64,000 nucleotides of DNA from Candidatus Competibacteraceae bacterium (lineage in GTDB: Bacteria; Pseudomonadota; Gammaproteobacteria; Competibacterales; Competibacteraceae), in contig RXIV01000005.1 of NCBI GenBank assembly GCA_003989085.1, positions 186,001 to 250,000 of the forward strand. The letters run 5' to 3'. The notes beneath the pieces are model-generated. The model was not told the origin of the DNA, searched no databases, and worked only from the letters and a program-made list of their open reading frames with translations. The translations under genes were made by a program, and so were the position numbers. Shown here one piece after another: positions 48,227 to 64,000 of this stretch; within the stretch, counting starts at the first letter, position 1, and the number at the start of each line of letters is the position of its first letter.

Positions 48227-48419
48227 ACAACCGCCTCCGGTATGCGGATCGCCACCGATCCACCCAGACTCCAAGTATAGCCACGAATTTTACTGGATTT
48301 AAGCCTAAGGCTTCTCTCTGACGGAGTCATAACCTGGTTATGAAGCCCTGTTAGAGACTGCATAGTAACTCTGCGTAGTCTACTATTTAGGTGGTCCAGC
48401 TGGGAATCGAAGGATTCCT
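48227..48419. other. divergent intergenic region upstream of the yfa operon
   Basis: About 190 bp with the promoter for the minus-strand yfa operon somewhere inside. No clear promoter or palindrome could be assigned. Base composition drops towards AT from about 48290 onward, marking the left border of the accessory stretch. Confidence 0.35.
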
Positions 48420-48786
48420 ATGATCTATCATGCGCGTAATCTCCACTCTGGATACTATCCTTTCACGATAAATTTGCTACGCTATTGGTGTGACAGACAT
48501 GAATGCGATGATCAGCTGCCTAAAAGTGATGAGATAGCTTTGCCCCTGAACCGGCCCAAGGGAGTTAGCAAAAGAAGCAAGGATATGGCTAATGCGCTAG
48601 CCGCAAAATTGCAAAGCTCCACTTTCATTACTACAACTTTCAGAAGGCGCTGCGTTATCGGAAACACAGAGTATTCTTGATGATGTAGTTAGTAGCGAGT
48701 TTCGGGGTGAATGGTTGGCGGATGGCTTAGTCACTCATGACCGGTTGATGGATAGAGTGTCTGATGAGGCGTTAGATTCGATGTAA
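48420..48786 (+). pseudogene. possible frameshifted small gene
   Basis: Two reading frames look coding but are out of phase. The first, from ATG 48420, runs as an 86-codon ORF whose end (after about 48610) becomes unlike protein. The second covers about 48620-48786 and reads PLSLLQLSEGAALSETQS, then ILDDVVSSEFRGEWLAD, GLVTHDRLMDRVSDEALDSM and TAA. The acidic, helical second part looks genuine but has a TAG upstream in frame and no start. A single frameshift near 48610-48625 would join them. I do not recognise the family. Its 3' end lies just before the cysteine-rich gene. Confidence 0.35.
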
Positions 48787-48843
48787 ATGGGTATTATGAC
48801 CTTTAATTTGTTCGTTTGCCGTGTGCAAACCGGGGGAAAAGTG

Positions 48844-50328
48844 ATGCGGAAGATAGAAATGACAATGGTTAGCATGAGAAATACTGCTGTGCCGCTCTTA
48901 TGCTTGCGCTTACCGCTAATGCGTCGTCTTGCTCTCTGGTTGAGTCTTTCTTTGTCTATGCTGTTTATGTCCGGCAATCATCTATATGCCAGCGATATTG
49001 GAGGCATTAAAGAGTTTTTTCCAAGCATACAGAGCAGCATTTATAGTTGGCAATATAGCAGTTCAATCTTGCGTGGGGTGAAACTCAGCGATGTTTACAC
49101 CTTTAATAATACAAAAACTACGTTTTTTGGGCCTGCCTATGCGAATGTTTGGACGAGTCCAGCTAACTTTCTGCAGTGTATGCCACCAACTGGCAGGAAG
49201 TTTTCTTATGCGCTTTGCTATTATTCTGGACCGAATGGCTCGACAGGAAATAATCCAGATAATCCTTCCTTGCCATGCAAGCTTTCTCCTGACGGTATAG
49301 TAGCCAATTGCACCTGTTACGAAATATCAACGGATGACGTATCTCCTAAGATACCCTACTATGTTGATATTCATGCTATTTCAAATCTGGGTATATATCA
49401 GGAAACCGTCGAAACATGCGGAAATGAAGGAGAAAAATGTGCTGCTACTGATAGGGATCCGCCGGTATGTGATGCAATTAATACTAACTTGCTGGTTCCC
49501 GGCGCTGACTTAATATCTGTCTTTTCACCGATTTATATACGCAATTATTTTAACCAAGGTGGAGGGAACTCGACGGATTGTCGTGATAAAGATGCCGGCG
49601 TCTATGCTGGCTGTATGACAGCGCCTTGCTACCGCACAGGGGAAAAGGATGCCCAAGGTCGTAACCTTGTGGAGTGCAAATGTCCTGTTTTTGATGGGCC
49701 TTACCAGATTGGTCAAGCGAAGCAAAGCTGCAATGCCAATGAATCTCCTCCCGGTATCACGGCTTTGAGTAGCGAACAGAGCGCTATTCGAGGCAACAAC
49801 GTATGGTCGGCAGCGTTTAATCCTGCGGGTAGTCCTATTGAAATTCCCGCCGGTGCGTGTGTGCCTGATCTGCCGGGAGACAAGGGTTGTGGTCTTTTTG
49901 ATCCTAGTAAGGACTACGGAAAAATTGTTGATCCTGCTGGGGCGCTTTGTACAAATGTTTGCACTGCTTATGGGGCAAGCAGTGTGAACAATAATGACAT
50001 TCAAGTGGGGTATAGTTGTGATGCAACGCTTTGCACAACATTGGGTATTGGGCAGGAAAGCAACCCTAACTTTCCGCCGCCCAGGAGCGATCAGGTCCAG
50101 TTATTGGGTAAGGCGTGCAGCGGTATCCAAGACATTAATGGAATGAAAGCGATCCTATTGGTCGAAGCGTTGGCAGAATGCAGTTGCTGCGCTAGTCAGG
50201 TATGTGGGTGCAATAATATCAACCAACCGACTAATCAAGCGATCTTGGGCCTGAATCAGCAACAGCGAGCTGTTAGCATTCAACCCCAGTGTGATATTAA
50301 CAACACGCTTTGCGGGAGTAATCCATAA
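48844..50328 (+). CDS. cysteine-rich secreted protein of unknown function
   Basis: 494-residue protein, unrecognised. The start is ATG 48844 with GGGGGA about seven bases upstream. The N-terminal region is long, with a hydrophobic core (LALWLSLSLSMLFMSG) and a likely signal-peptidase site near LYASD. The mature part has 28 cysteines by my count, an even number spread as C-x-C and CC pairs (NCTCYE, ECKCP, ECSCCASQVCGC). This suggests many disulfides in an extracellular or outer-surface protein. It is Asn/Ser/Gly-rich with no transmembrane helix after the signal. Codon use is much AT-richer than the flanking genes, consistent with recent acquisition. A strong terminator follows. Confidence 0.8.
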   Translation: MRKIEMTMVSMRNTAVPLLCLRLPLMRRLALWLSLSLSMLFMSGNHLYASDIGGIKEFFPSIQSSIYSWQYSSSILRGVKLSDVYTFNNTKTTFFGPAYANVWTSPANFLQCMPPTGRKFSYALCYYSGPNGSTGNNPDNPSLPCKLSPDGIVANCTCYEISTDDVSPKIPYYVDIHAISNLGIYQETVETCGNEGEKCAATDRDPPVCDAINTNLLVPGADLISVFSPIYIRNYFNQGGGNSTDCRDKDAGVYAGCMTAPCYRTGEKDAQGRNLVECKCPVFDGPYQIGQAKQSCNANESPPGITALSSEQSAIRGNNVWSAAFNPAGSPIEIPAGACVPDLPGDKGCGLFDPSKDYGKIVDPAGALCTNVCTAYGASSVNNNDIQVGYSCDATLCTTLGIGQESNPNFPPPRSDQVQLLGKACSGIQDINGMKAILLVEALAECSCCASQVCGCNNINQPTNQAILGLNQQQRAVSIQPQCDINNTLCGSNP

Positions 50329-50382
50329 CATGCGGATCAACAAATAAGAGTGCAACTGGATTAGGCGAGTGCAGTCCGACCG

Positions 50383-50411
50383 CCCGCGCCGCATTACTCA
50401 TGCGGCGCGGG
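50383..50411 (+). terminator. strong stem-loop after the cysteine-rich protein gene
   Basis: Perfect 12-bp GC-rich stem CCCGCGCCGCAT / ATGCGGCGCGGG around TACTC, about 55 nt after the stop codon. It is followed by a G/T-rich stretch (TAGTGTGTTTGG) rather than a clean T run. Probable transcription terminator of the cysteine-rich gene. Confidence 0.6.
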
Positions 50412-50587
50412 TAGTGTGTTTGGTCAAATCAGATATTCAGTGCGAGGGTTGTCCATGTTGTGAGCTTGAACTACGAGTCTGACGTATTCATCCGCTGGGG
50501 TTGCGCCAACTTGTTCAACCGCAAATCAACCCATAGCGCAAGGAAGTCAAATACACCGACTGCAAGCAATTATTGGTAACGGCGTGC

Positions 50588-51166
50588 TTAAGTGAATAAC
50601 CATCGCTGGATGAGATTCGTATAGCGGGGCATGACGACATAAACCATCAGAAAAATCACTGTTCCCGTAACGAAAAATGTTGTTAGGAAATGATTGTTAG
50701 GAACGCCTAGGTGACGCAGCACAGGTGCAACAATCAGTGGCGCCCCAAGCACTAACGGATAGATGGCGGACCACGTCACTAGGCACTGTTTCCAACGGAC
50801 TGGCACTTTTGCCTTGGCTCCCCCTGGAGTAAACCAGAAATCCAACCCGCTACTGATGAAAAAATCGTCACCAGTAACAAATAGCGGTTGAACCTTCTCG
50901 ATCAGACGGGCGCGAGCTGGCGACTCCATCCATTCCTGCAAATGCGCTCTAGTATCGAATCGGATAATGACTGTATAGGTCTCGGTCAGTCCGGGGATCG
51001 GACGGACGATATGCCAATCCAGATGACCAGGCGAGCCTTTGCAAAGCGGGGCAATCTCATTAAGCCAACTTTCGTAATCCGCAAGCCTTCCCTCACGCAC
51101 CCTATGCGTAATGACTGCTGTCGCGCCTTGGTCATCAGAATTCTTGGAAGCGGAATCTATAGTCAT
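50588..51166 (-). CDS. ABM-domain protein with C-terminal membrane helices
   Basis: 192-residue protein with two parts. Residues 1-105 form an antibiotic-biosynthesis-monooxygenase (dimeric alpha/beta barrel) domain: TAVITHRVREGRLADYESWLNE split over two segments, HLDWHIVRP, YTVIIRFDTRAHLQEWM. Residues 125-185 hold two hydrophobic helices (CLVTWSAIYPLVLGAPLIVA and FLTTFFVTGTVIFLMVYVV). This architecture is found in many proteobacterial ABM proteins of unknown role. ATG 51166 has AGGA seven bases upstream; a start at 51199 would add 11 residues. No linked enzyme suggests a substrate. Confidence 0.85.
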   Translation of the reverse strand: MTIDSASKNSDDQGATAVITHRVREGRLADYESWLNEIAPLCKGSPGHLDWHIVRPIPGLTETYTVIIRFDTRAHLQEWMESPARARLIEKVQPLFVTGDDFFISSGLDFWFTPGGAKAKVPVRWKQCLVTWSAIYPLVLGAPLIVAPVLRHLGVPNNHFLTTFFVTGTVIFLMVYVVMPRYTNLIQRWLFT

Positions 51167-51302
51167 CTTGGCGTCCTTAAAATGCTCAGTTAAGCGCATG
51201 ATCCAACTCTAATCCGTTACGATGCGCTTGCAGATATTGACGAAGTAGCATGGTGAAGCAGTTACCTTTCCTTCAGAAGGCGAAAAGGCGTATTTCATGC
51301 TA

Positions 51303-51884
51303 CTAGGGTTCAATCTTCGTCCCCAATAGGTGTAAAAATTTAGCAAGCCAATCGGGATGTGCAGGCCAAGCCGGTGCTGTGACTAACTTACCGTCTACAT
51401 ATGCTTGATCTACCGGAATATCAACATACCGACCACCAGCGAGGGTAACATCTGGCCCTACTGCCGGATAAGCAGAGCAGGCTTTGCCCGTAATCACTCC
51501 CGCCGCAGCCAATACTTGCGCGCCATGACAGATTGAGGCAATCGGTTTGTTAGCTTGCGAAAAGTGCTGCACCATCTTTAGCACGGCTTGATTCAAACGA
51601 ATGTATTCGGGAGCACGGCCGCCAGGAATGACTAGAGCATCATACTCTTCCACTTTGACCTCGGTAAAAGTCGCATTCAACGTGAAATTATGGCCGGGCT
51701 TTTCACTGTAAGTCTGGTCGCCCTCGAAGTCGTGAACCGCCGTGCGTACTTTCTCGCCGGTTTTTTTGTCGGGACAGACTGCATGAACGACATGTCCTAC
51801 CATCAGAAGGGCTTGAAAAGGCACCATAACTTCGTAGTCTTCAACATAGTCGCCAACCAGCATCAAAATCTTCTTTACACTCAT
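51303..51884 (-). CDS. DJ-1/PfpI family protein (glutamine amidotransferase-like)
   Basis: 193-residue cytoplasmic protein starting at ATG 51884 ([20 protein letters not shown]) with GGAG ten bases upstream. It has the DJ-1/PfpI nucleophile elbow [14 protein letters not shown] with the reactive Cys and a Glu in [23 protein letters not shown] and the C-terminal [18 protein letters not shown] are typical. Members act as glyoxalase III/deglycase-like or chaperone enzymes under carbonyl or oxidative stress; the exact activity is not determinable. It follows the gene at 51952-52599 by 67 bp on the same strand and may be co-transcribed. Confidence 0.9.
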
Positions 51885-51951
51885 CAGGACGTACTCCAGT
51901 GGGTCTTGCGTTTTACAGCTAAAGGTCGGGGAATTGATCTCACTACCCCGG

Positions 51952-52599
51952 TTAAAAAGGTTTAATCCAGGTTTTAGAAAGTTGAACCGTAAAATCAACC
52001 GGAAGCATACTGGCGCCCACCCCCAGTGCGAAGCTAATCCCGATAAGTGCAGCTGGACTAGTTGAAAAGATTAGATAAGCACCGCCAGTGATCACTTTTC
52101 CGCCAACATCAACGCCAACTACCAGTGATGTCCCCGCTAGACAAGCCGGCGCTGAACCAAAGTAATAGGTTGCTTGGCCTACAATGGAAACGCCTACATT
52201 AGTAACGCTGACTACTGAAATGGAGCCAAATAAGCCGATTTCGCCGGTGGGTGGTTTATTCCAGAAGTAGAGGCCGCCACTTGCTGCGCCTCCACCACCC
52301 GCCGCTGCTGAAACGGAAGGGCCTAGAGCTACTGTCCAGTCCCGGTGTGGGCGCACAGGCGCTTTTCGAATGCTCCCGATAAAGGTCAGTGGAACATGCG
52401 GATTGTGCGAGAAACGGAGGCATTCCTTGAGAATGGGCGTACCGGTCATCCCCAGCCCACAGTAAGCGCCCAGCACCGTTTCCAATGCCGTTTCGGAACC
52501 GAAGGTAGGGTGCTGATAGGGTGAAAGAGTGGCGGGACGCCCGATTTGCAGTGGGTCGATGTCCGCTACTGCGGACAGATCAATCAGGACACGGTCCAT
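51952..52599 (-). CDS. hypothetical protein, glycine-rich beta-type C-terminus (215 aa)
   Basis: Not recognised. ATG 52599 has GGAG eight bases upstream. The first 80 residues are polar, with Cys in [10 protein letters not shown] and [11 protein letters not shown] Gly/Ala/Ser-rich turn ([16 protein letters not shown]) then leads into an alternating hydrophobic beta-strand region ([40 protein letters not shown], cited as two segments). No signal peptide is seen. The pattern suggests a beta-sandwich or barrel. It is upstream of the DJ-1/PfpI gene on the same strand. Coding status is likely from the ribosome-binding site and composition. Confidence 0.6.
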
Positions 52600-52872
52600 A
52601 AACTATGCTCCACAAGGGTTGAGATATTGGAACAGGCGCATTTTTTCAGAGGCGCGGCCGCCAAAGCGTAGCGACACATAATAAGAGCAGAATAGTCGGA
52701 TATGGTGGCGGTTTCCATGCACTGCCCCGCCCTCAATTCGTACGGAGTTGCCTCAACTGCCGATCAAAACCAGCTGAGGTTATTCGTACCTGGCCAAGGC
52801 TCCGCCTTTCTTTCCCTTCATCGACCACATCATTGGGACGCCGCAGCACACGATCCACATCCCCAAGGTAAA
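52600..52872. other. intergenic region with no supported gene
   Basis: Promoter region for the minus-strand gene ending at 52599, then about 200 bp with only short frames that lack ribosome-binding sites or recognisable motifs. A 65-codon plus-strand frame here is Gln/His/Pro-rich and looks non-coding. Confidence 0.35.
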
Positions 52873-53046
52873 TCACTGAACCGCCTCAGCAACGGTTAAC
52901 GCAGCCGCAGGTTCCAAATCTGGTAACCAGCGGGCAAAGGGGGTGAGGTCGCGACCTGCCGGAACGCGCCACTGCCGGCGTTCCGCATATCGATACGCAC
53001 CTAAGCGCTTAACTTCATCATCTTTTGTGCGGAACTGAACCCGCAG
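52873..53046 (-). pseudogene. DUF5710-like C-terminal fragment
   Basis: Minus-strand frame whose translation contains LRVQFRTKDDEVKRLGAYRY followed by RRQWRVPAGRDLTPFARWLP. This matches the short DUF5710 domain as I know it (V-P-F-x-x-K-D-E-A-K-x-L-G-A-x-W-D ... W-Y-V-P-A-G-x-D-L-x-P-F), which usually caps DNA-processing or mobile-element proteins. The open frame extends to 53199, but that upstream part resembles nothing and overlaps the cas1 promoter region, so I treat this as the remnant of a larger gene. The first conserved aromatic is a Tyr instead of the usual Trp. Confidence 0.6.
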
Positions 53047-53150
53047 AGAGGTTGGAGGTATACGGTTATTGAACCGTTCCGGTGAATCATTGGGTAAGTG
53101 TGCTGATGCAGTCCGAAATGTAAAAATTATGAGATACACTGTTTTTGGTA

Positions 53151-53247
53151 TGGAACAATGACAAGACTGGCAGTCGCGTGAAGCCAGATTAAAGGACAAA
53201 TGTTTTATATTGAAACATCATGAAACCGGATTGTTCCAAAATGGAAC
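53151..53247 (+). promoter_or_regulatory. putative cas1 operator and promoter region
   Basis: TGGAACAAT (53151-53159) reappears inverted as ATTGTTCCA (53230-53238). The second copy is part of the perfect 15-bp palindrome GTTCCAAAATGGAAC (53233-53247). A -10-like TATATT lies at 53206-53211 between them, without a good -35. The arrangement of a half-site plus a full palindrome around a promoter looks like a repressor/activator site for cas1-cas2-3. Confidence 0.45.
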
Positions 53248-53285
53248 TGATTATCAGACCCAACAGGAGCCGGATACTGTACCTC

Positions 53286-54263
53286 ATGGATAATTTTTCT
53301 CCTTCAGATCTGAAAACCATCCTGCATTCCAAGCGGGCCAACCTCTATTACCTTGAGCATTGTCGTGTACTGGTTAACGGCGGGCGTGTGGAGTACGTCA
53401 CCGATGAGGGGAAACGCTCTTTTTACTGGAATATTCCCATCGCCAACACCACGTCTTTGCTACTAGGTACCGGTACTTCCATCACCCAAGCGGCGATACG
53501 CGAATTGGCAAAGGCTGGTGTGATGGTCGGGTTCTGCGGTGGCGGCGGTACACCGCTTTACAGTGTGAACGAGATGAATGTTGAAGTCGCCTGGTTCGCC
53601 CCGCAGAGCGAATATCGCCCGACAGAATACCTGCAAAGCTGGGTGCGCTTCTGGTTCGATGACGGCCTGCGCCTAGAAGCCGCCAAGGCATTCCAACGCG
53701 CCCGTTTGGAGCGCATCGCTGAGCATTGGTGCGACAACCGACTGCTGGCCGACAATGGCTTTCAGGTTCCTCGCGAATCTTTGCTGTTTGCCTTGGAAGG
53801 ATCGCGACGTCTGCTCGATGCGGTCGAGGATGGCATGGCCCTACTGGCGGAAGAAGCGCGCCTCACCAAGAAACTATTCAAGTTTGCCGTCAATGCGGTG
53901 GACTACGGTAATTTCGTCCGCGCCAAGAACGGCGGCGGCGCCGATCCGGCCAATCGTTTTCTGGATCATGGCAACTATTTGGCCTACGGGTTGGGCGCTA
54001 CGGCCACCTGGGTGCTCGGCCTGCCGCACGGACTCGCCGTCTTGCACGGCAAGACCCGCCGGGGTGGCTTGGTGTTCGACGTGGCGGATTTGATCAAGGA
54101 TGCGGTGATCCTTCCTCAAGCTTTCATTTCCGCCATGCGGGGCGATGACGAGCAAACCTTCCGCCACGCCTGCATCGAGAGCTTGTCCCGTACCGAATCG
54201 CTGGATTTCATGATCGACACTGTGAAGGCGGTCGCGTCCGAGATGGGGAATCGCGCACGATGA
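53286..54263 (+). CDS. cas1: CRISPR integrase Cas1, type I-F
   Basis: 325-residue metal-dependent integrase for spacer acquisition. The N-terminus FSPSDLKTILHSKRANLYYL matches I-F Cas1 proteins, so ATG 53286 is chosen; the frame stays open upstream to ATG 53220, which would add 22 residues (AGGAG lies ~20 bases before 53286, too far to decide). Family motifs include WNIPIANTTSLLLGTG, GVMVGFCGGGGTPL, QSEYRPTEYLQSW and the metal-site HGLAVLHGKTRRGGLVFDVADL region (read as two segments). The stop overlaps the cas2-3 start by four bases, so adaptation genes are coupled. Confidence 0.96.
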   Translation: MDNFSPSDLKTILHSKRANLYYLEHCRVLVNGGRVEYVTDEGKRSFYWNIPIANTTSLLLGTGTSITQAAIRELAKAGVMVGFCGGGGTPLYSVNEMNVEVAWFAPQSEYRPTEYLQSWVRFWFDDGLRLEAAKAFQRARLERIAEHWCDNRLLADNGFQVPRESLLFALEGSRRLLDAVEDGMALLAEEARLTKKLFKFAVNAVDYGNFVRAKNGGGADPANRFLDHGNYLAYGLGATATWVLGLPHGLAVLHGKTRRGGLVFDVADLIKDAVILPQAFISAMRGDDEQTFRHACIESLSRTESLDFMIDTVKAVASEMGNRAR

Positions 54264-57200
54264 ACGTGCTGCTGATCTCCCAGTGCAGCAAGAACGCCCT
54301 TACCGAAACTCGCCGCATTCTCGACCAGTTCGCCGAACGGCGCGGCGACCGGACTTGGCAGACCGCCATCACCCAGCAGGGGTTGGGGACTTTGCACCGT
54401 TTGCTTCGGCAAACCGCCCGCAAAAATACCGCCGTCGCCTGTCATTGGATTCGTAGTAAGGATCATAGCGAATTGTTATGGATCGTGGGCGATGCCCGAC
54501 AGTTCAATGCGCAGGGTGCAACGCCGACCAACTTAACCGAACGCGATGTGCTGCGGGCGGACGATGAGAACGATTGGCGCACCGCTGAAGACATTCGCCT
54601 TCTCGCTCGTCTTGCTGCGCTGTTCCATGACTTCGGCAAAGCGAATAACGCTTTTCAGAAGAAACTCACCAGCAAAACACCGATAGCGGATGCCTACCGG
54701 CATGAATGGGTGTCGCTGCGCGTGTTTGAAGCCTTTGTTGGGCAGAGCAGCGATCAGGATTGGCTGAACCGATTGACCCAATTAGCGGATGATGCGGGCG
54801 CGGCGTGTCTGGAAAAGCTCAAGTCGCTCAGCGATGGCGTGGGCAACCGGAGAATTGACAGCCCCTTCAAAAAGCTACCCCCACTGGCGCAAGTGGTGGG
54901 CTGGCTGATTGTCAGTCATCACCGCGTGCCGACGCCGCTACCAGGTGCCCAACTGAACCAGGGTCTGCTGAAGAAACTACAGGAGCAGATTGCACACGAT
55001 TGGTGCGGCAGCCGTCCCGATGAAGCCAGCGCCCTTGCCTGCTGGCAATTCAAAAATGGCCTGCCATTCAATAGCCAACATTGGCGGAAACATACCGCCA
55101 AGGTAGCGCAAGCCATTCTGCAACGCCCGCGCCTAGTTGGCGACGGTGAAACGGCCAAGCTGCTGGACAGCCCGTTCATTCTGCATATTTCACGCATGAC
55201 CTTGATGCTGGCCGACCATCACTATTCGGCGCAGCCCAGCCATGCCATGTACGGCGATAAACCCGGCAAAAAAGGCACGGTGCTGTACGCGAATACGCAT
55301 ATCAAGGACGGTAAGCGGGTGCTCAAGCAGCGGTTGGACGAACACTTGATCGGGGTAGAAGTCAGCGCCAGCCGCATTATGCGGACGTTGCCGCGCTTGG
55401 CCGGAGCCTTGCCGCGCATTGCCCGACATAAAGGCTTTCGCGAACGGAGCAAAGGGTTTTTTCGTTGGCAGAACCAGGCGTTCGATCTGGCCGAGAGTTT
55501 GCGGGCGCGATCCAGCCGCCAAGGCTTTTTCGGCGTCAATATGGCGTCCACGGGTTGCGGCAAGACGTTAGCCAATGGGCGCATTCTCTACGCGCTGGCC
55601 GATCCGCAACTCGGGGCGCGCTTCACCGTGGCGTTGGGCTTGCGCACGCTGACCTTACAAACCGGCGACGCCTATCGCCGACGTTTGCATCTCGGCCAGG
55701 AAGATTTGGCGGTGTTGGTGGGCGGTGTGGCGACTCGCGCCTTGCATGAGTACCCGCTCGGCAAACAGGAGCAGGAGCATCTGGAAAACGGCTCCGAATC
55801 CAGCGCGGATCTGTTGCCCGATCACAACCATGTTCATTACGAAGGCAGCCTGGAAAGCGGGCCGCTGAAAGAATGGTTAGGCAAGAACAGCGATGCCTTG
55901 CGCCTGCTGGATGCCCCCGTACTGGCTTGCACGATTGATCATCTGATGCCGGCGACCGAAGGCGTCCGTGGCGGCCATCAAATCGCGCCCATGTTGCGGC
56001 TGATGACCTCTGATTTGATTCTGGACGAGCCGGATGATTTTGGCATTGAAGACTTGCCCGCGTTGACTCGGCTGGTGCATTGGGCTGGCCTATTGGGGAG
56101 CCGCGTCCTGCTGTCGTCGGCCACGTTGCCGCCCGCGCTGGTGCAAGGCTTGTTTTTAGCGTATCTGGCCGGGCGGGCGGAGTACCAGTGTCATCGGGGC
56201 AGGCCGGGCGAGCCTTTAGCGGTGTGCTGCGCCTGGTTCGATGAGTTTGCCGTGCAATCCAGTGAGCACCATGAAGGCGCTGCCTATCTTGTCGCCCATC
56301 GCCAATTTGTTGACCGGCGATTGACGCAACTGGCTAAGGCTGAAATACGCCGCCGGGCGCTGATCGTCGCGTTGCCGATTGCGACCAAACAACCGCGTGA
56401 AGTCATTTGTACCGAATTGGCTGGGTCGCTGCGCCAGCATGTGCATTCTTTACATCGCCAGCACCACAGCATTGATCTGAAAACCGGCAAACACGCCAGT
56501 TTCGGGCTGATCCGCATGGCGAATATCGATCCGTTGTTCGATGTAGCGCGAGAGCTATTTCGGCAAGGCGCAGAAGAAGGCTGCCGCATCCATCTGTGCG
56601 TGTACCACTCGCGTCATCCCCTGTTGGTGCGGGCGGCTATCGAGCGGACTTTGGACGCCGTGCTCCAGCGCGGCAAGCCCGATGAGGTGTTCAAGCTCGA
56701 CAGTGTGCGCCAGCGGTTGGAAGCCACACCCGAGCAAGAACATATCTTTGTCGTGCTGGCGACTGCCGTGGCCGAAGTGGGGCGTGATCACGACTATGAC
56801 TGGGCGATTGTCGAGCCGTCGTCCATGCGCTCGATTATTCAACTGGCGGGGCGGGTTCGTCGTCATCGCGCCGGGATATGCCAAGCAGATCAACCGAATT
56901 TGTACCTGCTCAATACCAATGTGGTTCATCTGGTTGAGGGCGGTAGCAAGCCGGCTTTTCTGCGTCCGGGGTTTGAGGACAAGAGTTTTCTGCTGGCCAG
57001 CCACCGCTTGCCTGAAATTCTCACCCCTGAACAGTGGCAAATCATCAATGCCGCTGCCCGCATCAAGGAACGTGATCCGCTGTTGCCGAAGAACAACCTG
57101 GCTGATCTGGAACACGACCGCCTGAGAGACTTGATGCTCGGCGCGGACACTGGACAAGTGCAGGTGGATGATCCCGTTCATCGCTGGTGGACCACTCGCG

Positions 57201-57568
57201 CTTATTTGAGCGGCCACCTTCAGCGCCGCAAACCGTTTCGTCAGGATTCACAAGGGCGGTCGCACTATGCCTTGCTGCCCGAAGACGATGAAGCGATCAA
57301 CTTCTATTACTTGCCTGAAAAAAGTGAACCACAGGCGTCGCGCCATCTTTGGCGGGAAATGCAGGACAGTGATGTGCCGCATGGGCCACGGATCGAGGCA
57401 TGGGCCGCGCCGCGCTATCTGGATGCGTTGCAAGAATTGGCTGACGCCAAAGGGATGGATCTGCGGGATTGCGCGTTGAAATACGGGACGCTGGATTTGC
57501 CTGGTTGGGAGCCGAAACAAATTTGGCGTTACCACTGGGCTTTAGGATTCAGTCGGTATCGCGGGTAG
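54260..57568 (+). CDS. cas3: Cas2-Cas3 fusion helicase-nuclease, type I-F
   Basis: 1102-residue fusion unique to type I-F, acting in both adaptation and target destruction. Residues 1-~95 are a Cas2 domain (MNVLLISQCSKNALTETRRI). The HD nuclease has LFHDFGKANNAFQ with His123-Asp124. The SF2 helicase has Walker A STGCGKT with Lys435 and a DExD-type box ILDEPDDF with Asp589-Glu590. Motif III-like LLSSATLP and a late QLAGRVRRH arginine-finger motif are intact. The C-terminal accessory domain ends at 57568. Nothing suggests inactivation. A 465-bp regulatory gap separates it from csy1. Confidence 0.97.
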   Translation: MNVLLISQCSKNALTETRRILDQFAERRGDRTWQTAITQQGLGTLHRLLRQTARKNTAVACHWIRSKDHSELLWIVGDARQFNAQGATPTNLTERDVLRADDENDWRTAEDIRLLARLAALFHDFGKANNAFQKKLTSKTPIADAYRHEWVSLRVFEAFVGQSSDQDWLNRLTQLADDAGAACLEKLKSLSDGVGNRRIDSPFKKLPPLAQVVGWLIVSHHRVPTPLPGAQLNQGLLKKLQEQIAHDWCGSRPDEASALACWQFKNGLPFNSQHWRKHTAKVAQAILQRPRLVGDGETAKLLDSPFILHISRMTLMLADHHYSAQPSHAMYGDKPGKKGTVLYANTHIKDGKRVLKQRLDEHLIGVEVSASRIMRTLPRLAGALPRIARHKGFRERSKGFFRWQNQAFDLAESLRARSSRQGFFGVNMASTGCGKTLANGRILYALADPQLGARFTVALGLRTLTLQTGDAYRRRLHLGQEDLAVLVGGVATRALHEYPLGKQEQEHLENGSESSADLLPDHNHVHYEGSLESGPLKEWLGKNSDALRLLDAPVLACTIDHLMPATEGVRGGHQIAPMLRLMTSDLILDEPDDFGIEDLPALTRLVHWAGLLGSRVLLSSATLPPALVQGLFLAYLAGRAEYQCHRGRPGEPLAVCCAWFDEFAVQSSEHHEGAAYLVAHRQFVDRRLTQLAKAEIRRRALIVALPIATKQPREVICTELAGSLRQHVHSLHRQHHSIDLKTGKHASFGLIRMANIDPLFDVARELFRQGAEEGCRIHLCVYHSRHPLLVRAAIERTLDAVLQRGKPDEVFKLDSVRQRLEATPEQEHIFVVLATAVAEVGRDHDYDWAIVEPSSMRSIIQLAGRVRRHRAGICQADQPNLYLLNTNVVHLVEGGSKPAFLRPGFEDKSFLLASHRLPEILTPEQWQIINAAARIKERDPLLPKNNLADLEHDRLRDLMLGADTGQVQVDDPVHRWWTTRAYLSGHLQRRKPFRQDSQGRSHYALLPEDDEAINFYYLPEKSEPQASRHLWREMQDSDVPHGPRIEAWAAPRYLDALQELADAKGMDLRDCALKYGTLDLPGWEPKQIWRYHWALGFSRYRG

Positions 57569-57576
57569 GAAAGATG

Positions 57577-57595
57577 CCGGGACGAAGTGTCCCGG
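57577..57595 (-). terminator. terminator-like hairpin for the minus-strand mini-array RNA
   Basis: Perfect 7-bp stem CCGGGAC / GTCCCGG with loop GAAGT, just after the cas2-3 stop. On the minus strand it comes directly after the second pseudo-repeat and is followed by CATCTTTCC, so it fits as the end of a short minus-strand RNA. On the plus strand it is followed by TTGGGG and is a poor terminator for cas2-3. Confidence 0.55.
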
Positions 57596-57623
57596 TTGGG
57601 GCGCTGCCTATCCGGCAGTGAGT
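57596..57623 (-). repeat. degenerate CRISPR repeat 2 (hairpin only)
   Basis: 20 of 28 positions match the array repeat, with a perfect central block ACTGCCGGATAGGCAGC; the 3' handle is replaced by GCCCCAA. It would form the 3' hairpin of the mature guide RNA but could not serve as the 5' handle of another. It starts 24 nt after pseudo-repeat 1 instead of the 32 nt seen in the array. Confidence 0.85.
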
Positions 57624-57647
57624 TTAGCTGCATGCTACCAGTTGCTA

Positions 57648-57675
57648 TTTCTAAGCTGCTTATTCAGCAGTTTTT
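57648..57675 (-). repeat. degenerate CRISPR repeat 1 (intact handle, covarying stem)
   Basis: 28-nt pseudo-repeat: stem CTGCT-GAATA-AGCAG and 3' end CTTAGAAA. Differences from the array repeat are the first four bases (AAAA for CTTT), one loop base and the paired C-to-T / G-to-A change that keeps the stem. It should still be recognised and cut by Cas6f. Confidence 0.85.
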
Positions 57676-57677
57676 CA

Positions 57678-57707
57678 ATTATCGCACTAAGCCCGTGAGG
57701 GTGCGAT
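57678..57707 (-). promoter_or_regulatory. promoter and inverted repeat for the mini-CRISPR RNA
   Basis: On the minus strand TGCGATAAT gives an extended -10 (TG-n-GATAAT, five of six matching TATAAT) at 57683-57678. This would start transcription at about 57671, right at the first pseudo-repeat. No good -35 is present, as allowed for extended -10 promoters. An inverted repeat with arms ATCGCAC (57681-57687) and GTGCGAT (57701-57707) overlaps the promoter and may be a regulator site. Confidence 0.55.
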
Positions 57708-57762
57708 GAGCCTGCCGCTATTTTTCGGTGCTTGCATCTATGTGAAAAGTTGGGTAGGCTAA

Positions 57763-57813
57763 TTGCCGTTATCAATAAATAGGTACATTCTAACAGTTGC
57801 TAGGAATTAAAAT
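57763..57813 (+). promoter_or_regulatory. putative csy operon promoter containing the mini-CRISPR target
   Basis: Best -10 candidate is TAAAAT at 57808-57813 (five of six). A weaker upstream pair is TTGCCG (57763-57768) with TACATT (57784-57789). The sequence complementary to the mini-CRISPR spacer occupies 57779-57802, with the I-F PAM (CC on the minus strand, GG on the plus) at 57803-57804. A bound Csy complex would cover the -35/-10 interval. A near-IHF site (12 of 13 to WATCAANNNNTTR) lies at 57770-57782. Confidence 0.6.
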
Positions 57814-57825
57814 TTTGCCAAAATC

Positions 57826-57855
57826 AACGCCGAGGTGCGGGGGCACCTCGGCGTT
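57826..57855 (+). terminator. 13-bp stem-loop at the 5' end of the csy leader
   Basis: Arms AACGCCGAGGTGC and GCACCTCGGCGTT pair perfectly around GGGG. The hairpin begins about 10 nt after the expected transcription start and is followed by only TTTGAA. It may therefore be a 5' stabilising structure or attenuator rather than a simple terminator. Confidence 0.55.
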
Positions 57856-57926
57856 TGAAGCAAATCACTTCTCGTGCAGTCGAGAACTCAGCCGCAGAGT
57901 CCGTTGCGAGCAAGGAGGGTACATAG

Positions 57927-57959
57927 TTGCTTGGCCAGCACCTCACCTTATTAGCCTAA
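57927..57959 (+). CDS. 10-codon leader ORF with strong Shine-Dalgarno (candidate leader peptide or CreT-like toxin)
   Basis: AAGGAGGG at 57912-57919 stands seven bases before TTG 57927, which opens a 10-codon frame (M-L-G-Q-H-L-T-L-L-A) ending at TAA 57957-57959, directly before a terminator. A good ribosome-binding site in front of such a short frame is unlikely to be there by chance, but the TTG start is weak evidence. Position between a guide-targeted promoter and a terminator is what a CreT-like toxin or an attenuating leader peptide would show. No toxicity can be inferred from sequence. Confidence 0.3.
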   Translation: MLGQHLTLLA

Positions 57960-57961
57960 GC

Positions 57962-57994
57962 GGCCCCGGAGCAAAATCCCCGGGGCCATTTTAT
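57962..57994 (+). terminator. intrinsic terminator/attenuator immediately upstream of csy1
   Basis: Stem GGCCCCGG (57962-57969) pairs with CCGGGGCC (57980-57987) and is followed by ATTTTAT. It lies only 39 bp before the csy1 start, leaving too little room for another promoter, so csy1 must be transcribed through it. This suggests attenuation control of the csy operon or a separate short RNA ending here. Confidence 0.6.
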
Positions 57995-58033
57995 ACAAGC
58001 CGACCTTCAACGTCACTTAAGGAGATAGCATCC

Positions 58034-59344
58034 GTGGCTCCTTCAACTCATGCCATCGGCGATACAGAACAGATTCGGCAAGCCATAGCTGCATTTCTGC
58101 AAGATCGCCTCAAACCCAAGCTGGACAAACTCAAGGAAGAGGATCATGACGCACGGCAAAAGCTGCTGGCCGCGCATGATCCGCAGACCTGGATTGCTGA
58201 TGCGGCGAAGCGGGTCAGTCAAATTCAGCAAGTTACGCACGCGATCAAGTTCAGCCACCCCGACGCCAAAGGGTCCAGCTTGAGCAGTGCCGGCAACCAA
58301 AAGGCTGGTGATTTTACTGTCGGTTCTCACACTCTGACGGATATGCTGCCACCAGATGTAGTAGGCAGCGCGGCAGCGCTCGGCGTGTACAAGTTCCTGC
58401 GCCTTGAAGTGAACGGTCAATCATTGCTGGATCGCGCTATCGCACAAGACCCCGCGCTGGCTGCCGCCCTTTCTGATGATGCTAATTTGGCCTGCGAATG
58501 GATGGCGGCCTTCGCTACCTTGCCTGAACCGAACGGCCCGCCAGCGACCCATAAACTGGCGAAACAACTCTATTGGCCGCTGGGCGACGGGCGTTATCAC
58601 CTGCTGGCTCCACTGTTTCCGACCGCGCTGGCTCATACGGTATGGGCGGGCATCCGAGAGGATCGCTTTTCCGACGAGGCCAAGGCCGCACGGGAAGCCA
58701 AGCGGGAGAATCGCGCCCATCCGCAGGGCTATCGTGAATATCCCAATCTGGCGATCCAGAAGTTTGGCAGCACCCAACCGCAGAACATTAGCCAACTCAA
58801 TACTGAACGTCGCGGCGAAAACTGGCTGTTGCCCTCTTTGCCGCCGACGTGGCAATCCGACTCGATCCGCCCGCCGTTTTTTACCGAGAGTGTCTTTGCC
58901 CGCCGTTTTCCCAAGCGTTTTGAGGTAAAGCGCCTCACTCAAGCACTGAGTGAATTCCTCAAGCGTGTGGCGAAGGTGGACAACAACATCCACATCAAAA
59001 GCGCACAGGCTAAACTGGTGAGCGACATCTTTGCTGAGTTGTTTCAATTTGCCGCCGAACTGCATGAACTCGACGCGGGCTGGAGTCAGGACGAAAGATG
59101 CCGTCTCAACGCGGCGGAACAATGCTGGCTCGATCCCAAACGCGCTGTGATGGACGAGGAATTTGCTGGCCGTTGGCTGAGTGGCAAGTGGCAAGATGAA
59201 ATCTGCCTGTACTTTGGTAATTGGTTGAATGCGGCAATCAGCACCGAGCAAACACCAATGGGACAAGCCGAATCCGAGGCGTGGCAAACGAAGTTGCGCG
59301 ATGAGTTGAGCATGATTCGCTTGGAGCTTGCCGACCATGACTAG
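58034..59344 (+). CDS. csy1: type I-F Csy complex large subunit Csy1 (Cas8f)
   Basis: 436-residue Cas8f subunit that helps recognise the PAM and crRNA handle. The start is GTG 58034 with AAGGAG nine bases upstream; the frame is open to 57797, but that part covers leader hairpins. Recognisable family segments include IRQAIAAFLQDRLKPKLDKL, FSHPDAKGSS, TDMLPPDVVGSAAALGVYKF and NWLLPSLPPTW. First gene of the csy1-csy2-csy3-cas6f operon; it overlaps csy2 by eight bases. Confidence 0.95.
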   Translation: MAPSTHAIGDTEQIRQAIAAFLQDRLKPKLDKLKEEDHDARQKLLAAHDPQTWIADAAKRVSQIQQVTHAIKFSHPDAKGSSLSSAGNQKAGDFTVGSHTLTDMLPPDVVGSAAALGVYKFLRLEVNGQSLLDRAIAQDPALAAALSDDANLACEWMAAFATLPEPNGPPATHKLAKQLYWPLGDGRYHLLAPLFPTALAHTVWAGIREDRFSDEAKAAREAKRENRAHPQGYREYPNLAIQKFGSTQPQNISQLNTERRGENWLLPSLPPTWQSDSIRPPFFTESVFARRFPKRFEVKRLTQALSEFLKRVAKVDNNIHIKSAQAKLVSDIFAELFQFAAELHELDAGWSQDERCRLNAAEQCWLDPKRAVMDEEFAGRWLSGKWQDEICLYFGNWLNAAISTEQTPMGQAESEAWQTKLRDELSMIRLELADHD

Positions 59345-60335
59345 CGTACTGATTGAAGCAGGGGGGCTGCTGATCCTGCCGCGCTTACAAATCCAAAACG
59401 CCAATGCCATTTCCGGCCCACTGACTTGGGGCTTTCCCTCGCCAACCGCGTTTACCGGCTTTGCCCATGCTTTGGAACGCCGGTTGCGAACTGATTCAGG
59501 CGACTTGAAACAAGGCTTTGGTGGAGTTGGCATCATCTGCCACCGCTTTGAACCTCAAGTGTCACGACCTGCTGGACGACGCACCCAAGTCTTTCGCCTG
59601 ACGCGCAACCCGGTCGGCAAGGACGGCGCACCGACGGCGCTGGTGGAGGAAGGCCGCGCTCATCTGGAAATCAGTTTGGTCATCGTGGTGAAGGATGGGT
59701 TTGATGACTTCGATGGCAACGAGTGGGCGAAAACCGCTCACCACATTGCCCAAGGGATGCGGCTGGCGGGCGGTAGCGTCCTGCCTGCTGGCAAAGGCGA
59801 ACGCTATGAAGCCCGGTGGCAGATTTTGCCCGACTCTCTCAACTCGCAAAAAGAAGTCTTCGGCAAATTGCGCCGTCGTTTGCTGCCCGGTTTTGCGTTG
59901 GTGCAGCGGGAAGACCTGCTGGCTGAACGACTGGCCGAAATTCGCGCTCAGCAATCCAACGCAATCGCTCTGGACGCCTTGCTCGACCTTTCGCGGCTGA
60001 ATATCGAACCGACCGCGCTCAATCCTGATAAGCCGGAAGAAGTCACTTGGCAGGTGCGCAAGCGTCCGGGCTGGCTGGTTCCGCTGCCGATTGGCTATGC
60101 CGGCATTTCGCCTCTCTACGGACCGGGCGAAGTTGAGAACGCCCGAGATAACGTCACCCCATTCCGGTTCGTCGAAAGTCTGTATTCCTTGGGCGAGTGG
60201 GTGAGTCCGCATCGACTGGAGAACCTGCAACAACTGCTTTGGCACACCGAAGCGGACACCGAAAACGGCGTTTACCGCTGCACCAACCACTATTCCGAAA
60301 CAACAACCCCTATCGCCGTTGGCGGCATCGCATAA
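59337..60335 (+). CDS. csy2: type I-F Csy complex subunit Csy2 (Cas5f)
   Basis: 332-residue Cas5f that forms the tail of the Csy complex with Csy1 and holds the crRNA 5' handle. It begins TSVLIEAGGLLILPRLQIQN and continues ISGPLTWGFPSPTAFTGFAH, the standard Csy2 opening. ATG 59337 is preferred over an in-frame TTG nine bases upstream, with GGAG ten bases before it. The end contains GYAGISPLYGPGEVENARD. Overlap with csy1 indicates translational coupling. Confidence 0.95.
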   Translation: MTSVLIEAGGLLILPRLQIQNANAISGPLTWGFPSPTAFTGFAHALERRLRTDSGDLKQGFGGVGIICHRFEPQVSRPAGRRTQVFRLTRNPVGKDGAPTALVEEGRAHLEISLVIVVKDGFDDFDGNEWAKTAHHIAQGMRLAGGSVLPAGKGERYEARWQILPDSLNSQKEVFGKLRRRLLPGFALVQREDLLAERLAEIRAQQSNAIALDALLDLSRLNIEPTALNPDKPEEVTWQVRKRPGWLVPLPIGYAGISPLYGPGEVENARDNVTPFRFVESLYSLGEWVSPHRLENLQQLLWHTEADTENGVYRCTNHYSETTTPIAVGGIA

Positions 60336-60347
60336 GGAAGCAATGAC

Positions 60348-61391
60348 ATGGCTAAAACTGACCTGAAAACCGCCTCCGTATTGGCGTTTGAACGTAAGCT
60401 AGACCCGTCCGATGCGCTGTTTAGCGCCGGATGCTGGGACGAACGGACGAACGGCCCACAGTGGGTTGCAGTGGGTGTCAGAGAAAAGTCGGTGCGCGGT
60501 ACTATTTCCAACAGACTGTCCACCAAGGATCAGGATCCAGCAAAGCTGGATGCCTCGATCCAGTCGCCCAACCTGCAAACCGTTGATGTCGCGACGCTCC
60601 CCAACGACGCCGATACCTTGCGCGTCCGTTTCACCCTGCGCGTTCTTGGTGGGGCCGGCACGCCATCAGCCTGTAATAATGCGGACTATCAGAAAAAGTT
60701 GCAGATCACGGTCAAGCAATACGTGGATCAAATAGGCCTTGCCGAGTTGGCCCGGCGCTACGCCTTCAACTTAGCGAACGGCCGCTTTCTGTGGCGCAAT
60801 CGAATGGGCGCGGAACAGATCGAGGTACAGGTTTGCCACTTGATCCAAGGCGAAACCAGCCAAGCCTGGACCTTCAACGCGCACGATTTTTCCCTGCGAA
60901 ATTTCGATGCGCCCGCTCATGCCCAAGCGGATTTGCACTCTTTGGCAGCCGCCATCGAACAGGGTCTGGCGGGCAAAGTCTATGCGCTGCTGGACGTGGT
61001 CGCTTATGCCAGAGTGGGTGGCGGGCAGGAAGTTTATCCGTCCCAGGAACTGATACTCGATCGAGGCGATAAGAAAGGCCAGAAGAGCAAGACGCTTTAC
61101 ACCGTGGGCAATATCGCCGCCATCCACAGTCAGAAGATCGGTAACACCCTGCGAACCATTGATACCTGGTATCCCAACGAAGAAGAAGGCATCGCAATCG
61201 GCCCAATCGCCGTCGAGCCTTATGGTTCGGTCACCTCGCAAGGAAAAGCCTATCGTCAGCCCAAGGATAAAGCCGACTTCTATAACCTGCTGGACAACTG
61301 GGTGCTCGCAGATAAGACGCCAGATGCTGGCAATCAGCATTATGTGATGGCGACGTTGATCCGGGGTGGCGTCTTCGGCGAGAAGGACTGA
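60348..61391 (+). CDS. csy3: type I-F Csy complex backbone subunit Csy3 (Cas7f)
   Basis: 347-residue Cas7f; six copies form the crRNA-binding backbone in known complexes. Family segments include [40 protein letters not shown] and [11 protein letters not shown]. The length is typical. AAGGA lies eight bases before ATG 60348, and the gene is 12 bp after csy2 and 3 bp before cas6f. Confidence 0.96.
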
Positions 61392-61394
61392 CAG

Positions 61395-61958
61395 ATGGAT
61401 GCCTATCTTGAAATCCGGCTGTTGCCCGATCCGGAGTTCATGCCGACACTACTGATGAATGCCCTGTTCAACAAGTTGCACCGTGGGTTAGTGGAGCAGG
61501 GTGGGAACAATATTGGCGTGAGTTTCCCCGATGTTGGGAAGAAGAGCCGGTCTCTTGGCGAACGGTTGCGCCTTCACGGCAGTAGAACAAACTTGGCGGA
61601 GCTGATGGCCTTGAACTGGATGATGGGGATGCGAGATCACTCTGTGGTGGGCACAGTTATGGAAGTTCCCGCTCATGCCAAGCCGAGAGTGGTCCGGCGA
61701 GTTCAGGCCAAAAGCAACCCGGAACGGCAACGGCGTCGGTTGATCGCCAGAAAGGGCGTCAGCCTTGAGCAAGCAATACAGGCGATCCCGGACGACGCGA
61801 TGGAGCTGTTAAAACTGCCCTACCTGATTTTAACTAGCCAAAGTACGGGCCAGCAGTTTCGCCTGTTTGTGGATCATCTGGCGATTCAAGAACAAACAGT
61901 AGTTGGCGCGTTCAGTGCTTACGGTCTGAGTCCAACGGCTACGGTTCCTTGGTTCTGA
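61395..61958 (+). CDS. cas6f: CRISPR RNA endoribonuclease Cas6f (Csy4)
   Basis: 187-residue ribonuclease that cuts pre-crRNA at the base of the repeat hairpin and stays bound to the 3' end. It starts MDAYLEIRLLPDPEF. His29 in LFNKLHRGL is at the position of the catalytic His of characterised Csy4. The arginine-rich helix for RNA major-groove binding is visible in VVRRVQAKSNPERQRRRL. It should process both the main array and the degenerate mini-array, since both keep the 5-bp hairpin. Last gene of the csy operon. Confidence 0.96.
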   Translation: MDAYLEIRLLPDPEFMPTLLMNALFNKLHRGLVEQGGNNIGVSFPDVGKKSRSLGERLRLHGSRTNLAELMALNWMMGMRDHSVVGTVMEVPAHAKPRVVRRVQAKSNPERQRRRLIARKGVSLEQAIQAIPDDAMELLKLPYLILTSQSTGQQFRLFVDHLAIQEQTVVGAFSAYGLSPTATVPWF

Positions 61959-61993
61959 CCCTTTAATTTTTAGCCCCTTAGATAGGTGTTAAT

Positions 61994-62006
61994 AATCAAA
62001 TAGTTA
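61994..62006 (+). promoter_or_regulatory. perfect IHF consensus in the CRISPR leader
   Basis: AATCAAATAGTTA fits WATCAANNNNTTR at every position and lies 84 bp before the first repeat. IHF bending of the leader directs Cas1-Cas2-3 integration at the first repeat in type I-F systems. A 12-bp palindrome TAGTTATAACTA (62001-62012) overlaps it. Confidence 0.75.
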
Positions 62007-62032
62007 TAACTAGCTCCGTTATTTTGGTTTTA

Positions 62033-62057
62033 GGGCGCGATTGCGCCCTTTTTCTTT
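62033..62057 (+). terminator. intrinsic terminator of the csy operon within the leader
   Basis: GGGCGC-GATT-GCGCCC hairpin followed by TTTTTCTTT, 75 bp after the cas6f stop. It ends the csy transcript inside the leader, so the array likely has its own promoter between here and 62089. Confidence 0.85.
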
Positions 62058-62089
62058 AAAAATTCGGCTATTATCAGAATTGACTTCTC

Positions 62090-64000
62090 CTTTACTGCCG
62101 GATAGGCAGCTTAGAAAATTCACCACCGCTTGCGATTCCAGCGTGGCTACTTTACTGCCGGATAGGCAGCTTAGAAACTGGACTTATCGCCTTGCAACTC
62201 TGCGAGTTGCTTTACTGCCGGATAGGCAGCTTAGAAAAGCACTGCCAGCCAAGCCAGCGGATCGGTCACCTTTACTGCCGGATAGGCAGCTTAGAAAAGT
62301 CCCTTCCTGACTCACTGCCGGGAAATCGATCTTTACTGCCGGATAGGCAGCTTAGAAAAAACCCGGCAACCGTCAAGCCGAACAGACCCGCTTTACTGCC
62401 GGATAGGCAGCTTAGAAATGTTGCGGGACTTGGATGCGGGAAAGGAAACACTTTACTGCCGGATAGGCAGCTTAGAAAGTGATGGTTTGCGCTGGCGAAC
62501 CGCTCGTCACCTTTACTGCCGGATAGGCAGCTTAGAAAAACAAGGAATACCCGTCTGCCGCACTAGGGAACTTTACTGCCGGATAGGCAGCTTAGAAACG
62601 ATAGAAATATCGGTAAAGCCAGTAGCGTAATCTTTACTGCCGGATAGGCAGCTTAGAAAAGCTCCCGACGTAACTGCGCGAGGTCATCCTCCTTTACTGC
62701 CGGATAGGCAGCTTAGAAAGTAACCCGGAGACGGTTCCGAAGTATCGGGTCCTTTACTGCCGGATAGGCAGCTTAGAAATTACCGAGTTCCTGCTGTGTG
62801 CGCCGGTGCTGTCTTTACTGCCGGATAGGCAGCTTAGAAATGGTGACCTCGATCAGCTCCACCTCACACCCACTTTACTGCCGGATAGGCAGCTTAGAAA
62901 AATCACTGCAAACCGAATTTCGCCTGGTGACCCTTTACTGCCGGATAGGCAGCTTAGAAAAGAACCGCGGCTTTCTTGTGTGGCACTTTAGCCTTTACTG
63001 CCGGATAGGCAGCTTAGAAAGGGCGCATGTCGCCGCACTCGCATTCAGTACCCTTTACTGCCGGATAGGCAGCTTAGAAAGGTCACTTGGCCGCGTATCG
63101 CCACCAAAGTCCCTTTACTGCCGGATAGGCAGCTTAGAAAAACGCCATCCCCGTCCGGCTGCTGGCCCAGTCCTTTACTGCCGGATAGGCAGCTTAGAAA
63201 AACTTCTCACGCCCGCCGCTGTGCTCGATAGCCTTTACTGCCGGATAGGCAGCTTAGAAAGCTGATACCAGCGCGATAATCTGTTTTCCGTCCTTTACTG
63301 CCGGATAGGCAGCTTAGAAATCACTGGACGGTGCCCCAGCTAGTGGTGTTTTCTTTACTGCCGGATAGGCAGCTTAGAAAAAGGAAACTGACGAAGGAAC
63401 GCGACGAGCGGCCTTTACTGCCGGATAGGCAGCTTAGAAAAAATGAGGTGTCTTTGCAGACGGAAGCTATTTCTTTACTGCCGGATAGGCAGCTTAGAAA
63501 AATCAGGGTGAGGATCTGGCGCTGAGTTTCTTCTTTACTGCCGGATAGGCAGCTTAGAAAACCAGTGGCGCGGTGCTAACCGCCAACAATCTCTTTACTG
63601 CCGGATAGGCAGCTTAGAAATGACTGGCGAGCACGGTAGGCGTCGCCAGATACTTTACTGCCGGATAGGCAGCTTAGAAATGTAGCCGTCCGCAAGAACG
63701 TCGGTGCCGACGCTTTACTGCCGGATAGGCAGCTTAGAAAATGCGTCATTTGCGGCAATCTGCTTATCACTGCTTTACTGCCGGATAGGCAGCTTAGAAA
63801 TGCTGGCATCATCGTCGACGTGGACAGCTTGGCTTTACTGCCGGATAGGCAGCTTAGAAAGTTGCCGGAATCATGGCGACGTACAGCCGATGCTTTACTG
63901 CCGGATAGGCAGCTTAGAAATCGCGTTTTTGTCAGCCTGCTTGCAGCGATTGCTTTACTGCCGGATAGGCAGCTTAGAAAAGACGAGTATGTCGAATGGT
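62090..64000 (+). CRISPR. type I-F CRISPR array, 32 repeats visible, truncated by window end
   Basis: Thirty-two copies of an identical 28-nt repeat, from 62090-62117 to 63953-63980. The repeat begins CTTTACTGCC and ends GCTTAGAAA, with hairpin CTGCC-GGATA-GGCAG; it is a close variant of the canonical I-F repeat (GTTCACTGCC...AAGAAA). There are 31 complete spacers: 28 of 32 nt and three of 33 nt (after repeats 4, 9 and 12), plus 20 nt of another at the edge. Orientation follows the csy operon, with the leader on the left. No degenerate terminal repeat is seen, so the array continues. All spacers look unique by eye. Confidence 0.98.

Follow-up and report, generated by a model that had tools for sequence, protein, structure and literature searches.

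Strictly conserved cysteine frameworks are usually the mark of well-studied folds. A cysteine-rich protein that is exported is also known from methanotrophs in the form of the copper-storage protein Csp1, and the family described here has export, cysteine richness and occurrence in methanotrophs in common with it. The framework of this family is conserved across several phyla and gives a high-confidence structural model; the family has neither a name nor a relative of solved structure. We describe the family from one of its genes, located in a 64,000-nt stretch (the window) of a 3.5-Mb gammaproteobacterial genome that has Candidatus Competibacteraceae as its nearest named relatives.

Gene and predicted export

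An initial annotation of the window had pointed to an AT-rich gene for a secreted protein with 28 cysteines arranged in CxC and CC pairs (Table 1). The open reading frame starts with a clear, hydrophobic export signal and encodes 29 cysteines, of which 28 belong to the mature protein because C20, the 29th, sits in the signal region ahead of the likely cleavage site. Both CxC and CCxxxxCxC motifs were found, and cysteine makes up 5.8% of residues against a mean of 1.3% in the ORFs of the window. Comparison with a 73%-identical homologue gave 89, 65 and 262 differences at codon positions 1, 2 and 3, respectively; as these fall mainly at third positions, the frame is under protein-level selection and represents a genuine coding sequence. 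An in-frame ATG at 48787 is a possible alternative start, and the stem downstream of the gene is consistent with a single-gene transcript.

Table 1. Positions of the gene, its parts and related features. Coordinates are those of the window unless a locus in another genome (L and a number) is named.
Feature	Position	Strand	Basis or remark
Gene for 494-aa cysteine-rich exported protein, stop included	48844..50328	+	ORF, homologues, codon-position bias
Shine-Dalgarno-like GGGGGA, 6 nt 5' of ATG 48844	48832..48837	+	Sequence reading
Predicted Sec signal region, residues 1-49, likely cut between LYA and SD, holds C20	48844..48990	+	Sequence inspection
N-terminal core domain, ~residues 92-328, 14 Cys invariant in 72/72	49117..49827	+	Alignment; AF2 pTM 0.90
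C-terminal domain, ~residues 336-494, 14 Cys near-invariant in long members	49849..50325	+	Alignment
Terminator-like 13-bp stem 3' of gene	50382..50412	+	Stem long and GC-rich; stem count not above shuffle expectation
Low-GC variable region containing the gene	48250..53200	.	GC3, end of sister-species synteny
C-type lectin domain fused ahead of cysteine-rich core, methanotroph proteins	L067 7491-8693; L074 7494-8663		
~2190-aa repeat-rich protein beside homologue	L009 4264-10830; L010 10859-17449		WGR-like gene close by in L009

Family members and distribution

When 84,980 species genomes were scanned with a profile, 72 loci came up; as short motifs underlie the scan, this count is a lower bound. 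With this number of relatives, an orphan gene was rejected. The earlier statement that the protein belongs to no recognised family holds for Pfam and NCBIfam, neither of which gave a match, but overlooks a large undescribed family. The core of the window protein likewise matched nothing in PHROGs, PADLOC or PDB sequence models, 70 of the 72 members match no Pfam entry at E <= 0.1, and the literature library searched held nothing on the family. Gammaproteobacterial members come from Competibacteraceae, methanotrophs, Microbulbifer, Francisellaceae and others, and alphaproteobacterial ones from Methylocella, Roseibium, Maricaulis and others; the remainder are from Dadabacteria, Binatota, Myxococcota-labelled MAGs, Acidobacteriota and single others.

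Of 35 genomes tested, 31 carry one copy of the gene. Its occurrence was patchy in the three groups considered: 3 of 39 genomes of the window's own family (one of the three a frame-broken copy), 11 of 17 Francisella-like species and 5 of 19 Maricaulis-like genomes. Within the genus, 1 of 4 genomes has it. A conserved operon was rejected, since no neighbouring gene recurred beyond close relatives. In the phylogenetic tree, the window protein shares a cluster (100/94) with the other two copies from Competibacteraceae, a Methyloprofundus MAG and a short Nitrospira-binned contig. The cluster is part of a gammaproteobacterial group to which Francisellaceae and Thiotrichales belong as well. Two alphaproteobacterial lineages, Methylocella and Acetobacteraceae, are placed beside Microbulbifer, among Gammaproteobacteria (starred support), which suggests transfer between classes.

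Composition and genomic site

The AT-rich character of the gene and its departure from the codon use of its GC-rich neighbours were borne out by third-position composition: GC3 is 0.422, compared with 0.666 +/- 0.062 for the 30 window ORFs of at least 250 aa, a deviation of 4 sd. The low-GC3 patch (0.42-0.52) runs on to ~53.2 kb and takes in the next genes too; the anomaly is therefore that of a segment, not of a single gene. Upstream lies a block encoding alpha-2-macroglobulin, DUF1175 and DUF2138 proteins, syntenic with a sister species at ~80% DNA identity. This synteny stops at ~48226, just upstream of the gene, and the sister species is without the segment. At this junction its genome has, behind DUF2138, a different low-GC gene (L097 10593-11768, GC 0.47), suggesting that the site is prone to insertion.

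The low-GC genes downstream (50588-53199) encode an ABM-domain membrane protein, a DJ-1/PfpI protein, a protein with no Pfam match and a DUF5710 protein. They are followed at 53220-63980 by a complete type I-F CRISPR-Cas system (cas1, cas2/3, cas8f, cas5f, cas7f, cas6f), with at least 32 repeats reaching to the window end. This system looks ordinary, and a link to it was rejected.

Horizontal acquisition of the gene within this low-GC segment is likely, because the 4-sd deviation coincides with patchiness in genus and family, a synteny break immediately upstream and a neighbourhood that differs from that in two other Competibacteraceae genera. In both of those genera the homologue adjoins a repeat-rich protein with a WD/HEAT-like start (Table 1), which does not occur in the window. 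One of these homologues, from Candidatus Competibacter phosphatis (L010 9000-10430), is split by frame changes, its pieces lying in different frames and one containing a TGA; this could be decay or sequencing error.

The converse history, in which the gene has long resided in the family, has disappeared from most relatives and owes its low GC to its own constraint, we consider unlikely. Two other Competibacteraceae genera do carry the gene, there too with a GC3 below that of the neighbours (L027, -0.28; L021, -0.09). Against it, the mean GC3 offset from neighbours across the family is zero, so that low GC is not intrinsic to the family; moreover, the genomic sites differ, the neighbouring genes are low in GC too and the segment is missing from the sister species. 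A housekeeping homologue at this site throughout the genus, which would have spoken against the initial annotation, was not found.

The initial annotation had called the transfer recent. Transfer itself is well accommodated by these observations, but they do not establish that it was recent: the closest relatives are 72-80% identical and all within the same family, and no donor was found. A proposed check for a flanking integrase or att site was equally negative: there was no integrase among the scanned neighbour genes, no tRNA in the 64,000-nt window, and the flanking att-like repeats were weak and chance-like, so none of these signs of mobile-element cargo accompanies the gene. Plasmid or phage cargo was rejected after tblastn matched no plasmid and gave nothing credible among phages, as were relatives in IMG/VR, where two protein scans and a degenerate motif scan gave motif-sized chance matches only.

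Two-domain cysteine framework

The 72-row alignment divides the family into ~40 long members, which have a C-terminal domain, and ~30 short members consisting of the N-terminal domain only. The window protein is a long form: it has the 14 invariant cysteines of the N-domain together with its YALCYYSGP, AGCMTAPC and CxCP...GPYQ blocks, and a C-domain with 14 more, which together are exactly the 28 cysteines of the mature protein. Profile comparison revealed no relationship between the N- and C-domains, and an internal duplication of the N-domain was rejected because the comparison of its halves was not significant (probability 3%). The C-domain is best explained as an optional second module that has been gained or lost across the tree.

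Cysteines are also lost and gained together. C446 and C449 are jointly missing in two Accumulibacter rows, and extra cysteines occur in sets, such as position 231 with 415 in 23 of 23 rows. The even number per domain and this joint loss and gain suggest disulfide pairing, which would predict such co-occurrence, although the rows are related and the events few.

In the N-domain, no Asp, Glu, His, Lys or Arg is conserved above 75%; the invariant polar residues are Ser, Thr, Asn, Gln and Tyr, and the strongest conservation apart from cysteine is in Gly, Pro, Ala, Ser, Thr, Asn, Gln, Tyr, Trp and Met. This speaks against catalysis of the ordinary acid-base or metal kind in the common domain, and binding is therefore favoured over catalysis. 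The C-domain has a different set of residues, with Y376, D393, T398, E441, S447, S451, Q452, T463, Q474 and Q482 100% conserved in the long forms; given D393 and E441, an enzymatic or metal role of this domain is possible from its sequence. These residues and the high overall conservation across phyla could be read as those of a secreted enzyme, hydrolase or inhibitor-like, with a C-domain active site formed from D393, E441 and polar neighbours and an N-domain that positions the substrate. We regard this as doubtful: the ~30 members entirely without the C-domain make it dispensable for the common function of the family, there is no conserved His, and no enzyme family or fold was matched.

Proposed location and function

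In two members from Methylococcaceae methanotrophs, one of them Methylovulum, the core is preceded by a Pfam C-type lectin domain (E 8e-13 and 4e-14); in the one whose sequence was read, this domain has EPN and WND sugar-site motifs. As only 2 of 72 members are fused and the two are close relatives, they may represent one event. Members start with signal-like sequences, and in about a dozen, judged by eye, the signal ends in a lipobox-like sequence such as LAVAGC or LLAAC. Both the lectin fusions and the lipoprotein forms speak for an extracytoplasmic location. Together with the signal peptide and the two 14-cysteine sets, they also lend weight to the initial view of a disulfide-rich exported protein.

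Lipoprotein and secreted versions, a stand-alone gene and a composition rich in Ser, Thr, Asn, Gln, Tyr, Gly and Pro would equally suit a structural protein of the extracellular matrix or envelope that has no specific ligand and uses disulfides for mechanical and protease stability. That explanation seems improbable to us, since the gene is usually present in one copy per genome and residue conservation is very strict, which suggests a specific surface.

The reading we favour, to which we give about an even chance, is that the window protein belongs to a widespread, undescribed family of exported, disulfide-locked proteins that act as extracytoplasmic, protease-resistant binding or adhesion modules and are encoded by a horizontally spreading accessory gene. 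The protein would be exported by Sec and then oxidised and proofread by periplasmic Dsb enzymes; a DsbC-type isomerase (DsbC_N) is encoded in the source genome. It would act outside the cytoplasm, either free or, in some relatives, lipid-anchored. The N-domain, with presumably seven disulfides, would be the constant part and the C-domain the optional module of this protease-resistant binding or adhesion protein. Its stand-alone, usually single-copy gene would spread horizontally and would have entered the source genome in the low-GC segment.

Comparison with known proteins

A described likeness by domain association is the C-type lectin domain (PF00059), a domain of extracellular recognition that is fused to the family core in two members. 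It differs in being a separate domain; neither the core itself nor the window protein gave a PF00059 match. Within the family, the short Francisella proteins (272-277 aa) are 31-34% identical to the window protein and share a signal peptide and a homologous N-domain with 14 cysteines; they differ in having no C-domain, extra cysteine pairs and a neighbourhood of their own, beside murF-like and asd-like genes in several species.

The structure prediction that the initial annotation had called for gave a confident model. For the mature protein, AlphaFold2, run with the 72-row alignment, reached a mean pLDDT of 88.8 and pTM of 0.83; the N-domain modelled by itself scored 93.1 and 0.90. Both models were used in fold searches against the PDB, and viral models (BFVD) were searched as well. 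In the PDB, Foldseek found no match with E < 0.7 and VIA-align none with Z >= 2; a lack of PDB matches is by itself no proof of a new fold.

These results also bear on a cysteine-rich metal (copper) or redox protein with a role comparable to that of the methanotroph copper-storage proteins. Several members are from methanotrophs and the C-domain is helical and rich in cysteine. However, most C-domain cysteines lie in loops as CxC or CC and do not line helices, their even number per domain and joint loss and gain suggest disulfides, no PDB protein was matched by Foldseek or by sequence, and most members are not from methanotrophs. No PDB match connects the window protein with the Csp fold, a four-helix bundle lined with cysteines, and we hold a copper or redox role to be very improbable.

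The sole significant fold matches were the BFVD models of two uncharacterised viral proteins: A0A481YSG1 of Marseillevirus LCMAC101 (200 aa; E 1.9e-10, 26% identity, target TM 0.65), a virus known as a metagenome assembly (PMC6401483), and A0A6J5QU59 of Caudovirales (179 aa; E 8e-4). Both are unlike the window protein in being short and viral. We raise only tentatively, with low expectation, that the family has a new fold, a disulfide-armoured extracellular recognition domain common to several bacterial phyla and to viruses of protists and bacteria, for recognising or attaching to other cells. A single solved structure would put a name to the family in dozens of genomes at once, from methanotrophs, wastewater bacteria and marine bacteria to Francisella relatives, and would test for an extracellular domain common to bacteria and viruses.
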